Shown: one piece after another, positions 4,955 through 56,808 of the stretch
Layout: each line of letters starts with the position of its first letter
How positions within the stretch are numbered: position 1 is the first letter of the stretch
Source: Gracilibacillus salinarum
GTDB lineage: Bacteria; Bacillota; Bacilli; Bacillales; Amphibacillaceae
Direction: 5' to 3'
DNA: 64,000 bases
NCBI RefSeq assembly: GCF_022919575.1
Contig: NZ_CP095071.1
Coordinates: forward strand, 682,001 to 746,000
Made by a program: the position numbers and the translations under genes
Notes under the pieces: generated by a model
Told to the model about the DNA's origin: nothing
The model's database searches: none
Seen by the model: the letters and a program-made list of their open reading frames with translations, nothing else

Positions 4955-5500
4955 AGTATATAAGTACAGTCATAGAAGTAATCATGCCGAACTGGAAAAA
5001 ATGGGTTCTGATAATATGGATTATGTTAGCCAGCGCTAGCAGAGCACCCATATTGAGATATTTAATGTGCTGGGATACCACTTTGGCCAACCATTCCTGC
5101 GGGGCACGGCTGAAGCTACCTGCCTAGTCCCGCGGGAGTCTACGTGGTTGACCTACGCTAGGATAGGGACTGTAAAACTTTTGTAAGAGTTAGCATATTG
5201 TTCAAAGTATACAGATCAGGAATGGAATGAATAACATAATGTCTAAAACTACTGCTTTTAGCTGTTCCCTAAGTTGTAGCACTTCCCTCATGCGGAGACT
5301 CCTCATGCCTCAGCTCGAGCTGAAGATCCAATTCATTTGTGCCTGTGTCTGCAAGTATAGATTCAAAGTGGTCTTTCTCGGCGCAAGACAGCAGAGATGC
5401 TTTTTAAAATAGTAGCCTAGCAGACCGACGTACCTACAGGACGCGGAGCCTATTCTGCCATACAGGCCTGGTTAACATAATCCAGATTACAGGAAATTGT
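4955..5500 (+). repeat. Composite hairpin repeat, island 1
   Basis: This 546-base gene-free stretch lies between the accB promoter and the spoIIIAH terminator. Its left inverted end is at 5006-5030 and its right inverted end (GTTAACATAATCC-type) at 5470-5499. A shortened GC-rich M2 module of about 70 bases is at 5087-5155, from GGCCAACCATTCCTGCGGG to ACGTGGTTGACC. The AT-rich linker follows, and a diverged M1 module spans about 5290-5455. Weak ORFs inside have no ribosome sites and are not called. Confidence 0.8.
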
Positions 5501-16457: not shown

Positions 16458-16589
16458 ATTATAAAAGTGCAGTCACAACAGTAATCATATTGAATAAGAA
16501 GCTGAGTTCCTATGATATGGATTATTCAATTAGCTGCTTAGTGGTGATTTTGAAATGTTTCATTTGCTGGGATGCCGCTCCGCGCTCCG

Positions 16590-17205
16590 GTCGGGTAGAA
16601 AACAGGCGCGCGCATTCATGTAGAATCACGTTTCCTGTAGCCCCCCCACGATCCCGGACGGTCGGATTTCCCGAGTCCGGTTCTGACCTTGGCTCTATCA
16701 TAAATATGTCTTCCTCATTTAATCTAGGTTTAAGTTCTAGCCAACATTCACCCATTACTAAATGAGTTTACTTATCTACGTGAATGTCTCAGGCTTTTTT
16801 TTGTGTTGACTCTGCGTTCAACTTTGCCAGACAATCCGCCAAGTATCCAGAGCCCCTTTGCCCTATCTTGGGTGTTACTCTTGACAGAGATAGAATCTTG
16901 TTCTATCTCTGAAGGCATTACCCTTCATTCTTCGCTACTACGGACTCATCCGCCGATCCTAAATCTTCCATTCCTATTTCGCTGTAACTTATAAGGATTG
17001 GTCTTTGCAGGTTGTTGCTAGTCCCTGCTAGAAGTAGGACCTTCCCGTCGTTATCTCTAAGAATCTTTCCCTAGATGCTAAAACCCCTACAAGCAGAACG
17101 TGGGTCGTTACCTTCCCACGCATTGGATATGCTAGTCGTCTGAATCGGCAAATTGACGACAGGAGACTTTCACTCCATTAGATTCTTAGCCTTGACGGCT
17201 ACTCC
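16590..17205 (-). mobile_element. ORF-less group II intron, probably degraded, IIC-like 3' end
   Basis: Read on the minus strand, the segment starts near 17205 and ends near 16590 with TTCTACCCGAC, a typical 3' end of bacterial group II introns. A 34-base domain V-like hairpin is at 16683-16650 (GAACCGGAC arm, GAAA-containing loop, CC bulge, GTCCGG arm), but it has AAC where AGC is usual and one extra G. A closed domain IV stem (ACATTCAC/GTGAATGT) is at about 16795-16735. Upstream lies GGCGGATGAGTCCGTAGTAGC, which I recognise from the region before intron reverse transcriptases. No reverse transcriptase gene is present. It interrupts M2 of island 3. The 5' boundary is uncertain. Confidence 0.6.
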
Positions 17206-17594
17206 GCCAACCACTTCGCGTCCTGCGGGGCACGGCTGAAGCTAACTTTGTGAAGAAAGATCGCTTCACAAAGTGGATCTTCAGCGCCTGCCTGTCCCGC
17301 GGGAGTCTACGTAGTTGGCCTACGCTGAGATGGGGCTCTACAAATTCTGGAATTGCTAGAATATTGAATGCACCATAAATATCAGCTTTTAATAACATAA
17401 TGCCTATAACTACTGCTTCTAGCTGTTCCGAACGTTGTAGTACTTCCCTTTAGCTTAGGAAATAGGTGGAGACTCCCGTTGGATCAGCACGTTCTGAAGA
17501 TCCACTTAGTTTGTGTTTGTGTCTACTAGTATCGCTTTGAAGTAAGCTTCCTCGGCACAAGGCAGCAAAGATGCTGTTCAAGTAGCAGCCTAGC

Positions 17595-17920
17595 TATAGC
17601 CGTCAGGTTAAGGTAATGCTTTTAAAAAGAAAAGTGAATATGTTGCCGTAATGAATACAAGTTATCTATGTGTAGTGATTCTTTCTAAGTTGAGTGTAAG
17701 ATATCATTTATAATAGCTGTTCCTGAAGTATTGGCACAAGAAATCGGATTTTTGACCATAAGAGTCCTTTAGATATCCTTGAGTGGTCATATTTTTGATT
17801 CTTATGGACAACTTTTGCCCTTTTCCTTTTCAACTGTCCATAAGAATGGATTATATGATTGGCCGAACATGTAAGACAGTTTAAGCTCTCTTTTCTTTTT
17901 TCCTTAGCTTGACGGCTATG
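17595..17920. mobile_element. MITE-like element with inverted ends inside island 3
   Basis: About 326 bases interrupt the M1 module. The ends are imperfect inverted repeats: TATAGCCGTCAGGTTAAGG at the left and CCTTAGCTTGACGGCTATG at the right. The flanks AGCT on both sides may be a target duplication. A 12-base perfect inverted repeat (TTCTTATGGACA at 17799 and its complement at 17835) lies inside. There is no coding capacity. The rejoined flanks, CCTAGCT and AGCTGTGCCCCACAGG, restore the M1 sequence seen in other copies. Confidence 0.6.
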
Positions 17921-18065
17921 AGCTGTGCCCCACAGGACGCGAAGCCTATTTCCGGAGCTTTGCTAAGCAGATAATCTATATCATAATGACCATTTTGCAA
18001 TACTGTCTTTGTTAACACAATCCATATTATAGATAGTTGAGTTGTATATAATTTTCTTAGTTAGG

Positions 18066-28410: not shown

Positions 28411-29035
28411 TGAAAGTATATAAGTCTGGTCACATCAGTAATCATATGGAACATGATTGGAGTTCCTATAATATGGATTATGTTAACTAGCTTTGCGACC
28501 ATTATGAAATATTATTAGTGGTATTATGCCGCTCCGTCCAACTTCGCGTCCTGCGGGAGTCTACGTGGTTGACCTGCGCTAGGTTAAGGACTCTACAACT
28601 TCTGGAAGAACTAGCATATTGGTCGCCGCATGTATAACAGCAATTGAATAGATAACATATGCCTAGAAATACTGTTTTTTGATATTCCAAACGTTGTAGC
28701 ACTTCCCTAAAGCGTAGGAAATAGGCGGAGACTCCCGTGGAATCAGCGCGAACTGAAGATCCATTTCGTCTGTGCCTGCGTCTGCCAGTATTGCTTTGAA
28801 GTAAGCTTCCTCGGCACAAGGCAGCAAAGAAGCTGTTCAAGTAGTAGCCTAGCTGAAGTCGTGCCCACAGGACGAGGAGCCTATTTCTGGAGCTTTGCAA
28901 CGCAGATAAAATATTTCAAAATGATTGATTTGCCATACAGCCTTAACATAATCCATATTATAGGAAGTTGTTTGTTAATTAAGTCAATTGTTTAATGCAA
29001 AGTAAAAGTTATGAATATTGCAATGGGATTAAGGC

Positions 29036-38933: not shown

Positions 38934-39053
38934 TTACTACACACAGCATTTAAAATTTTCAAAAATAAGCACATGTCTAGTTGATGTAAACCGCATTATA
39001 AAATGTACATAATTGCTTCTGCATTCGGCTTTATAACTGAATGCTTTCATAAG

Positions 39054-39079
39054 AAAAACCGGGCATAAACCGCCCGGTT
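39054..39079 (-). terminator. Repeat-type terminator at the edge of island 6
   Basis: Minus-strand ACCGGGC pairs with GCCCGGT around a seven-base loop, followed by TTTTTC. It lies 26 bases outside the island's inverted end. It may also serve the convergent gene at 38466. Confidence 0.85.
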
Positions 39080-39084
39080 CTAAT

Positions 39085-39735
39085 TGAATTAATCAATAAA
39101 CAACTTCCCATAATATGAATTATGTTAACTAAGACTGTATGGCAAAACGGTCATTTTGAAATATTCTTTCTGCGTTGCAAAGCTCCGGAAATAGGCTCCG
39201 CGTCCTGTGGGCACGGCTTCAGCTAGGCTACTACTTGAAAATGCTTCTTTGCTGCCTTGTGCCGAGGAAGCTCACTTCGAAGCAATGCTTGCAGACACAG
39301 GCACAAATGAAGTGGATCTTCAGCTCGCGCTGATTCCACGGGAGTCTCCGCCTATTTCCTACGCTTGAGGGAAGTGCTACAACGTATGGAACAGCTAAAA
39401 GCAGTCGTGCTAGGCAGTGTATTTCATCAATTAAGGTGTAAATCTTGCAGCTAATGCTTCATATCCTAGCTGTCGCATAAATTGTGGAGCTATACATCAG
39501 CGTAGGCCAACCACGTAGACTCCCGCGGGACATGCAGGTGCTGGAGATCCACTTTGTGAAGTGCCCTCCTTCACAAAGTTAGCTCCAGCCGTGCCCCGCA
39601 GGACGCGGAGTGGTTGGACGTAGCGGTATCCCAGCACATTAAATATCTCAAAATGGATGCTTGGCTAGCGATGGCTAGTTAACATAATTCATAGTATAGG
39701 AACTCAACTTCATGTTCAGTCTTAGTTAGTGTCGA
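39085..39735 (-). repeat. Composite hairpin repeat, island 6, full copy in reverse orientation
   Basis: Inverted ends are at 39105-39131 and 39678-39704. In plus-strand order M1 is at 39185-39365 (GGAAATAGGCTCCGCGTCC to GAGTCTCCGCCTATTTCC), the linker at 39366-39500, and M2 at 39505-39625 (CCAACCACGTAGACTCCCGC to GCGGAGTGGTTGG). M2 contains an ACTTTGTGAAG/CTTCACAAAGT hairpin arm. It is the cleanest full copy in the window, about 600 bases between ends, and I use it as the reference. Confidence 0.88.
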
Positions 39736-39737
39736 AG

Positions 39738-39800
39738 TTTTTCTTATACGTTGTACATACTAAATTTTCACTGCGTCGTGCTGCATCATTGCTAAAATTT
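39738..39800 (+). repeat. AT-rich short repeat, copy B
   Basis: TTTTTCTTATACGTTGTACA and AAATTTTCACTGCGTC match copies at 21873 and 44515. It lies directly beside island 6. Confidence 0.65.
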
Positions 39801-39824
39801 TATATATTTTCCTAGCGTATAAAC

Positions 39825-39856
39825 AAAAAGAGCGAGCTCACAAGCTCACTCTTTTT
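39825..39856 (-). terminator. Terminator of the pst-phoU operon
   Basis: AAAAAGAGCGAGCT pairs with AGCTCACTCTTTTT (one mismatch) around a four-base loop, immediately past the phoU stop. Confidence 0.88.
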
Positions 39857-44575: not shown

Positions 44576-44596
44576 TATTATACTTCTAACCCTATA

Positions 44597-44623
44597 AGAA
44601 AAACCGGGCATAAACCACCCGGT
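44597..44623 (-). terminator. Repeat-type terminator at the edge of island 7
   Basis: Minus-strand ACCGGG pairs with CCCGGT around a nine-base loop, followed by TTTTTC. It has the same flank (TTAGGACCGGG) as island 3. Confidence 0.82.
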
Positions 44624-44624
44624 C

Positions 44625-45340
44625 CTAATTGATTTAATTAATAAACAGCTTCCTATAATATGGATTATGTTAACTAAGACTGTATGGCAAAACGGTCATT
44701 TTGAAATATTCTTTCTGCGTTGCAAAGCTCCGGAAATAGGTCCCGCGTCCTGTGGGCACGGCTTCAGCTAGGCTACTACTTGAAAAGCTTCTTTGCTGCC
44801 TTGTGCCGAGGAAGCCCACTTCGAAGCAATACTGGCAGACACAGGCACAGATAAATGGATCTTCAGCTCGCGCTGATTCCACAGGAGTCTCCGCCTATTT
44901 CCTACGCTTAAGGAAGGTGCTACAACAGATGTAACTGCAAAAAGCAGTGGTTCTAGACATTTTTCAATAGCTATTATATATGCATACGATCACTATGCTA
45001 GCTCTTACAAAAATTGTAGAGTCCCAATCCTAGCGTAGGCCAACCACGGAGACTCCCGCGGGACAGGCAGCGCTGAAGATCCACAACGTCTGCACCTGCG
45101 TCTTCTAGTATCGCTTTGAAATAGGCTTCCTCGGTGCAAGGCAGCAGAGAAGTAATTCGTGTAGTAGCCTAGCTTCAGCCGTGCCCCGCAGGACGCGGAG
45201 TGGTTGGCCGGAGCTGCATAATATACCACTAATAATATTTCATGATGGTCGCAAAGCTTAACATAATCCATATCATAGGAACTCTAATCATGTTCAATAT
45301 GATTACTGATGTGATCAGACTAATATACTTTCTTCACTGA
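44625..45340 (-). repeat. Composite hairpin repeat, island 7, full copy in reverse orientation
   Basis: Inverted ends lie at 44649-44675 and 45257-45282. M1 is at 44730-44910, the linker at 44911-45030 and M2 at 45033-45210. M2 carries the long inner arm normally found in M1 (ACGTCTGCACCTGCGTCTTC to CCTCGGTGCAAGGCAGC), as in island 4. The leader sequence AGTCTGATCACATCAGTAATC is at the right edge. The first 180 bases are nearly identical to island 6. ORFs across it are repeat translations. Confidence 0.87.
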
Positions 45341-45372
45341 TAAAAAAAGAGAACTAGTAAGACTAGTTCTCT
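45341..45372 (-). terminator. Terminator of pbpA
   Basis: AGAGAACTAGT pairs perfectly with ACTAGTTCTCT around a three-base loop, followed on the minus strand by TTTTTTT. The stem overlaps the last codons of pbpA. Confidence 0.92.
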
Positions 45373-56718: not shown

Positions 56719-56782
56719 TAGTATTATTTTAATCATGAAAAATATGCAAAAATGTACAACTGCCTAAAATACGGATTATGTA

Positions 56783-56808
56783 ATCACCTGACTATTGGGT
56801 GATTTTTG
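56783..56808 (+). terminator. Terminator of yqfT
   Basis: ATCACC and GGTGAT form a short stem around a nine-base loop, followed by TTTTTG. Confidence 0.7.

Follow-up and report, generated by a model that had tools for sequence, protein, structure and literature searches.

The dif site is expected once per chromosome, and additional Xer sites should be liable to cause deletions and inversions. Closest to the repeat described here are the dif (pdif) modules of Acinetobacter, segments between two inversely oriented 28-bp XerC/XerD sites, which in D modules have their XerD arms inside (PMC12907356, in part); the dif-module system has been called unique to Acinetobacter (PMC13141974, in part). Another related arrangement is CTXphi attP(+), where a single Xer site arises when a pair of inverted dif-like sites anneals within single-stranded DNA (PMC5357621, in part). 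Insertion just past intrinsic terminators, with a strand bias, is a feature of the bacterial-C group II introns (PMC8919778, in part), whose insertion is on the lagging-strand template. A literature search, with most subscription papers outside its scope, gave no description of the present repeat among the titles and abstracts listed.

We analyzed a window of 64,000 nucleotides (the whole stretch of DNA presented above), which corresponds to positions 682001-746000 of a 4.80-Mb genome (G000). The sample from this genome comprised the window and 80 further stretches (1.664 Mb), or 1.94 Mb with 15 more. That from a sister species (G011), whose pst genes beside island 6 are 91% identical to those of G000, amounted to 400 kb. 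The dif-like pattern was run on G000 and 60 relatives; the third element-bearing species is G007.

A composite non-coding repeat fills several intergenic islands of the window and recurs throughout the genome, which corroborates the central claim of the first-pass annotation. At up to 3 mismatches, the core TTCCTATAATATGGATTATG has 11 matches in the window, as compared with 0.03 expected from shuffles, and 273 + 274 in the genome, as compared with 0 + 1 for the backward pattern; the ends thus do recur genome-wide (547 core matches against one control match). Element density showed no useful origin-to-terminus trend. The eight islands together make up 6466 of the 64,000 bp (extents set by eye), i.e. 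about a tenth of the window, as had been estimated. Of the single architecture ascribed to all eight, inverted end pairs were recovered in islands 1, 5, 6 and 7. Not all islands are whole, and inverted ends are not present in each of them, islands 2, 4 and 8 having one recognizable end or none. In island 3 the ends are 1.5 kb apart and one has a degenerate inner arm; both modules of this island (16507-18037) lie in its second half, and it therefore contains something extra. Island 6, described earlier as the cleanest copy, does have both ends and both hairpins (M1 and M2), but it is itself a composite with a copy of another repeat, located between the phoU terminator and the 5' frame. As proposed, the islands appear to lack coding capacity: at a minimum length of 100 aa, two ORFs overlap them (117 and 132 aa), with no Pfam match. 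The inverted ends do not bound the unit, however, as had been thought, for the copies share approximately 60 nt beyond each of them. The features located in the window are listed in Table 1.

Table 1. Location of the features of the composite repeat within the 64,000-nt window
Feature	Position	Strand	Remarks
Island 1 dif-like site, degenerate	5004..5031	+	6 mismatches
Island 1 dif-like site, inverted	5470..5497	-	3 mismatches
Island 3 dif-like site	18010..18037	-	partner core at 16507 with degenerate XerD arm
Island 5 dif-like site	28461..28488	+	1 mismatch
Island 5 dif-like site, inverted	28941..28968	-	2 mismatches
Island 6 3' frame	39035..39102	-	3'-end HMM match 39104-39035, 60.6 bits
Island 6 dif-like site, 3'-frame side	39103..39130	+	ACTTCCCATAA-TATGAA-TTATGTTAACT; 1 mismatch to arm pattern; XerC arm outward, XerD arm inward
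Island 6 M1 GC-rich hairpin	39186..39370	+	module class of M2, opposite orientation; fold -68.3 kcal/mol
Island 6 M1-M2 linker	39371..39490	+	used for core-orientation scoring
Island 6 M2 GC-rich hairpin	39491..39624	-	nhmmer
Island 6 dif-like site, 5'-frame side	39677..39704	-	AGTTCCTATAC-TATGAA-TTATGTTAACT; 2 mismatches
Island 6 5' side	39705..39823	-	copy of another terminator-following repeat (ATTTTAGCAATGATGCAGCACGACG), then partial 5' frame
Host terminator 3' of PhoU-family gene	39824..39856	-	hairpin from 39830; island 6 after it
Island 7 3' frame and terminator	44582..44647	-	3'-end HMM match
Island 7 dif-like site, 3'-frame side	44648..44675	+	1 mismatch
Island 7 core	44731..45201		linker opposite at orthologous G011 locus
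Island 7 dif-like site, 5'-frame side	45256..45283	-	4 mismatches
Island 7 5' frame	45288..45341	-	5'-end HMM match; directly after PBP gene terminator
Isolated dif-like site (fragment)	56759..56786	+	4 mismatches

A search with island 6, recommended in the first-pass annotation, gave matches at E <= 1e-5 in 27 of 61 genomes (G000 included). Among the matches listed (at most nine candidates scored per genome), near-full-length ones were confined to G000 and G011, and those of the remaining genomes were pieces of the hairpin modules, which on this evidence are more widely distributed than the BLAST-visible composite. Near-full-length relatives of island 6 share 83-91% identity with it, and shorter pieces up to 94% (40 of 431 candidates scored). 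A diverged version of the whole composite is carried by G007, where two loci (L198 and L297), inspected by eye, have a terminator, a AGGAAAGT start, two inverted sites with the centre GATGGA and two hairpin modules; L297 additionally has a closing terminator.

The inverted ends are 28 bp long and read ACTTCCTATAA-TATGGA-TTATGTNAACT, TATGGA being the usual centre. As judged from their sequence, they are internal dif-like XerC/XerD sites and not the termini of a mobile unit. Their arms are those of B. subtilis dif, ACTTCCTAGAATATATATTATGTAAACT, save for one XerC position and one variable XerD position (PMC3025954, in part). With a free centre and at most 3 mismatches, the arm pattern was found 391 times (189 + 202) in G000, 217 times (112 + 105) in G011 and 29 times (13 + 16) in G007, and the backward controls in these three genomes gave 0. 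Among the 60 relatives, at the same threshold, 48 had one or two sites and seven had none (about 0.9 expected by chance); the backward arm pattern gave 53 matches across the 60. The next-highest counts were 8 in G059 and 4 in G057; the eight in G059, a member of another family, all lie on one strand, as compared with 3 backward controls.

More telling than these counts are the low-mismatch sites: among 17 other relatives for which site positions were listed, 14 have a site that departs from the arms at no more than one position and has TATATA, or something near it, as its centre. The presumed dif of G000 itself (ACTTCCCATAATATATATTATGTAAACT, centre TATATA) is located at 530031 and is the sole site with this centre in the 500 kb read. 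It lies where GC skew switches from +0.11 (480 kb) to -0.09 (600 kb), and G011 has this site at the corresponding place. A 1.38-kb insertion with a tyrosine recombinase gene (371 aa) adjoins the presumed dif of G000 (528611-529991) and is absent from the G011 place. The centres TATGGA and TATATA differ at two of six positions, a difference which, judging from the role of the spacer in dif modules (PMC13141974, in part), should limit exchange with dif. G000 encodes XerD (above the curated cut-off) and a second Xer-like frame of 302 aa.

In 1.94 Mb of G000, 73 pairs of neighboring sites (at most 5 mismatches) are no more than 1 kb apart; 62 of these are inverted with XerD inside, five are inverted with XerC inside and six are direct, and all 15 close pairs in the 400 kb of G011 are inverted with XerD inside; at 5 mismatches the backward pattern gave 29 matches in G000 against 230 sites. 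In island 6 the two sites are mutually inverted and have an identical central hexamer, TATGAA. Pairs with a non-consensus centre were concordant in 4 of 6 cases in G011 (permutation P 0.0002) and in only 1 of 13 in G000 (P 0.055, not significant). Conservation is also higher in the sites than elsewhere in the element: among the 30 top-ranking BLAST copies of island 6, it was 0.93 and 0.92 for site positions 5-27, as compared with 0.78 for the core, and the two sites ranked 4th and 12th of 447 windows. Conservation is argued from these 30 copies alone, because other sets of sites were picked by their likeness to the pattern.

Between its sites the core occurs in both orientations. Of the 70 paired elements in the G000 sample (ends at most 700 bp apart, sufficient flank), those with a scoring margin below 10 were left out; in the 51 remaining frames the core, scored by its linker against the frame, was R in 26 and F in 16, with eight linkerless and one scored as both. 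Module order gave a split of 18 to 13. At shared loci with a linker in both species, orientation was discordant in two of five, one of which is island 7. Both orientations of the core suggest that it may be flipped by the housekeeping Xer enzymes of the host. Against this, activation of the FtsK type would not be expected at a distance from the terminus. In G011, island 7 (L220) also harbors, at approximately 700-900, a nested insertion whose ends are GAGGTCACT..AGTGGCCTC and which is a candidate for an ordinary MITE.

Outside the sites lies a frame, which is oriented. One side starts TATNAGTCAAGAAAGTATA, often immediately past a hairpin and T-tract, and the other ends CCGGGCGG..GCCCGGTTTTTCTTA, which is a terminator of its own (in island 6, CCGGGC..GCCCGG followed by TTTTTCTTA). 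A frame-start profile gave 95 matches in the sample, of which we used the 81 whose beginning falls in profile positions 1-14 and which lie away from stretch ends. An intrinsic terminator on the same strand immediately precedes 53 of these 81 starts and one on the opposite strand 3, as compared with 62 of 1500 random intergenic points; by the caller used, 28 starts had no terminator. Frame sense coincides with the leading strand in 72 of 81. Among gene-associated terminators, 201 of 260 without an element and 31 of 33 with one have leading sense (p 0.023); this class was used because two-way hairpins probably dilute the proportion with leading sense among all 979 called terminators (57%).

Comparison of G000 and G011 over 373 kb of collinear sequence revealed 52 loci at which one or both species have marks of a frame, an end or a module: 17 in G000 only, 11 in G011 only and 24 in both (one of the 24 is the presumed dif). 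The search for empty sites suggested by the first-pass annotation confirmed that the element is mobile, since orthologous sites keep the terminator and lack the entire unit. Clean examples were found at 471470, 479850 and 720937 (island 6); at the last of these, the phoU place in G011 has no element and measures 124 bp, as compared with 906 bp in G000. The empty sites lack the frame too, and not the core alone. At 471470 and 479850 the right edge comes after TTA(T), which in turn follows the T-tract. As for target duplication, the T-tract and TTA(T) flank both sides, yet the element's own end has the same letters. Coreless frames joined at TGAATAGGAAGTT were seen twice (L109 near 7264, and L102); they may be unfilled or may result from deletions between ATAGGAAG repeats.

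Two other repeats resemble the main element in start motif and position. The second (about 225 nt, GACAGAAACGGCCACGTCCGGCTCC; 14 copies in the sample, near identical by eye) occurs in L034, L047-L049, L071, L080, L084, L088, L093, L104, L109 and L110. It has the CAAGAAAGTATA start in common with the main element, and most copies lie behind a terminator or behind that of the first element, which results in tandem arrays. The third repeat is short (ATTTTAGCAATGAAGAAGTTCGACG), frequently has a start resembling GGTAGGAAAGTATAAA and likewise lies behind terminators; it is found in island 6 (39735-39823 of the window) and in L031, L044, L048, L050, L060 and L094.

We consider it probable that the islands represent a terminator-seeking mobile repeat that carries a D-type dif module, with a core inverted by host XerC/XerD. 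Each island would be a copy of a non-autonomous unit of about 700 bp with three layers: (i) an outer frame that is closed by a terminator of its own and in most tested copies opens at the T-tract of a host-gene terminator (TTTTTTAT..AGTCAAGAAAGTATA..); (ii) within the frame, a pair of inverted 28-bp dif-like sites, their XerD arms facing inward, with TATGGA as the usual centre; and (iii) between these, two GC-rich hairpins and a linker. The frame (with the CCGGGCGG..GCCCGGTTTTTCTTA end) would be the unit that inserts behind terminators, and XerC and XerD (CodV/RipX type) would recombine the two sites, inverting the core while the frames retain their orientation. Mobility, anchoring at terminators, identity of the dif arms, both core orientations and a changeover at the 28-bp site emerge from comparisons between copies and genomes; we infer that XerC/XerD are the agents of inversion, and the element is presumably selfish. 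How the frames spread is a guess: they might do so via folded single-stranded DNA on the lagging-strand template.

Alternatively, the frames might be spread by the machinery of the group II introns of the same genome, whose assignment to the bacterial-C class would be by inference. The two share a target just past terminators and a leading-sense bias (72 of 81 frames, as compared with 201 of 260 terminators without an element), both of which are features of bacterial-C introns (PMC8919778, in part). Moreover, of the four intron copies in G000, the three with a readable 3' side are located exactly at a frame start, and the G011 intron lies next to a related start. These introns (L285, L289 and L291 in G000, L288 in G011) lie between a T-tract plus a few bases and a AAGAAAGTATA-type start that belongs to the element or to a related repeat; the one in L285 matches Rfam RF02003 and RF00029. 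Such co-location may reflect no more than the suitability of frame starts for the intron, four copies face hundreds of frames, and a search for group II intron ribozymes in the window, L001, L049, L094, L193, L198 and L285 found none in the elements, the only hits being in L285. A reverse transcriptase was likewise not found in the window islands. Machinery common to the frames and the introns is possible, but we regard spread of the frames by the introns' own machinery as unlikely.

Less likely still is an ordinary MITE, in which the inverted repeats would be transposon ends and the core alone would move, in either orientation, into a pre-existing frame. Inverted repeats, the lack of genes, high copy number and a core in both orientations all fit such an element, and the two coreless frames joined at TGAATAGGAAGTT could be unfilled sites. 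Frames without a core can, however, also come from deletion between the 8-bp repeats ATAGGAAG, the inverted repeats bear dif arms, and the empty orthologous sites are without the frame as well. The inverted repeats were rejected as transposon termini, since the frame beyond them belongs to the insertion. The earlier view that the element goes beyond a simple MITE is borne out.

The search for enzymes of mobility bears on the same question. Eight of 80 neighboring plus/minus end pairs have 700-5000 bp between their ends; one of these (L064) does not represent a single unit, a host gene lying within its span. We identified reverse transcriptase genes in L054 and L087, IS110-type transposase genes in L086 (split over two frames) and L087, and a DDE transposase gene in L107. 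These are read as nested insertions because they interrupt a module or sit between modules, and this placement counts against a MITE. The eight long cores of the sample offered no candidate for the element's own mobilizer. A genome-wide search for Y1 transposases (PF01797, the only family searched in this way) identified one IS200-like gene, whose ends differ from those of the element; IS200-like TnpA was rejected as the mobilizer on end similarity. No autonomous relative was found genome-wide for this one family or in the long cores of the sample.

The terminator-seeking repeat with its Xer module should also be weighed against inversion of the core by RecA or by slippage between the inverted arms, the likeness to dif then being ancestral or accidental. 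We examined 84 ends from 42 of the 51 confident frames. Outer positions through site position 4 track the side of the frame irrespective of core orientation (V 0.94 and p 7e-16 at position 2), those inward of and including 28 track the side of the core (V 0.87 and p 9e-14 at position 31), and site positions 5-27 track neither. This changeover is, to judge from the alignment, the expected trace of crossing-over within the site. Taken alone, it does not distinguish Xer from recombination through short homology, because the site is the sole well-shared stretch and the changeover would fall there in either case; the subterminal arms also match in inverted orientation (about 70% over about 120 nt). 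Near identity over some 23 bp is, on the other hand, short for RecA, and recombination of this kind leaves unexplained both the dif arms and their conservation above that of the element. The likeness to dif and the conservation of the site are independent support for the Xer reading of these sequences, and we give RecA or slippage little credence.

The element is strongly folded (RNA z -10.1), in keeping with the elaborate folding noted earlier. In the predicted fold of the single-stranded DNA of island 6 (z -7.4), the two dif-like sites pair into one duplex. The proposed covariation check was made on M2 with 31 of 134 qualifying rows (16 from G000/G011, 15 from other relatives): changes on both sides were present in 21 of 31 pairs, as compared with 9.9 in shuffles that leave relatedness in place, and 93.9% of the cells of the alignment pair, as compared with 38-43% when it is slid. 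The M2 hairpin is therefore likely under selection, although a DNA and an RNA hairpin would fit equally. The modules also occur in relatives without a surplus of dif-like sites.

In the window only tRNAs reach an Rfam gathering score, and none of these is inside an island; an Rfam identity of the window islands was rejected on this ground. The M2 relative in L198 matches tsr24 (RF02577) below threshold (32.6 bits, gathering 50). Bacillaceae-1 RNA (RF01690) has 0 matches in G000 and 38 in G007, and it lies in the tip of related hairpin modules in L198 (G007), L293 and L297, so that some of what this Rfam family covers may, in this genus, belong to a module of a repeat. In L209 (G040, another family) a sequence related to the tip of M1 adjoins 5S rRNA in an apparent 23S-5S spacer (by eye).

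The first-pass annotation had proposed a mobile or structured RNA element; the former part stands, given the empty orthologous sites, and the latter does not follow from the M2 covariation, which fits a DNA hairpin too. A transcribed ncRNA or 3' UTR kept for its RNA function would accord with the very stable fold, the M2 covariation, the element's own terminator, the sub-threshold tsr24 match and the Bacillaceae-1 tip of another L198 module, but with both core orientations either strand would be transcribed and turnover is high (28 of 52 loci in one species only), which makes this the least probable explanation of all.

A further reading of the terminator-seeking repeat, which we offer tentatively and hold to be somewhat doubtful, is that G000 contains hundreds of live inverted-pair Xer sites, that the core is an Xer-driven switch behind a terminator, that the sites fold into a duplex site in single-stranded DNA, and that the centre serves to avoid dif. 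The element might in that event use the host's dimer-resolution enzymes in its life cycle, a possibility we put forward with the same reserve. A chromosome with approximately 390-550 dif-like sites would show how Xer recombination stays local, and would provide a test of whether centre and pair geometry control it. The repeat would also extend dif modules from Acinetobacter to a Firmicute, in the form of a gene-free repeat, and would show a mobile repeat that unites terminator targeting with an Xer inversion cassette.

Compared with known systems, the element is not strictly speaking a MITE, and it is not an IMEX either: IMEX integrate at host dif, whereas its empty sites are terminators. Interspersed repeats that are modular or terminator-like are known as pneumococcal BOX and SPRITE, for which the part of the source considered names no Xer sites or core inversion (PMC3049150, in part). 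The bcr1 repeats of the Bacillus cereus group likewise have features of mobile elements, and the present element follows TTTTTAT-like tracts; the bcr repeats, compared here by description only, are 100-400 bp long, and the partial source mentions no Xer sites in them. Unlike bacterial-C introns, island 6 and the searched element loci gave no intron ribozyme match, and the islands no reverse transcriptase. The pairing of the two island 6 sites in the predicted fold resembles that of attP1 and attP2 of CTXphi. The closest match is the dif module, with which the element shares XerC and XerD arms and a 6-bp centre at both ends, mostly inverted. Acinetobacter modules carry genes and alternate between C and D, with 22 sites in one chromosome (as described in part of the source), whereas those reported here are non-coding, dispersed mostly singly, mostly of D type and present in hundreds in a Firmicute. 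Nor is there a passenger gene in the window islands, the reverse transcriptase and transposase genes of four long cores looking nested. Inversion is suggested here by comparison only, from the two orientations and the two discordant loci of five shared. As far as comparison of sequences can tell, the element has the architecture and behavior of a dif module of the D type that sits inside a repeat seeking out terminators.
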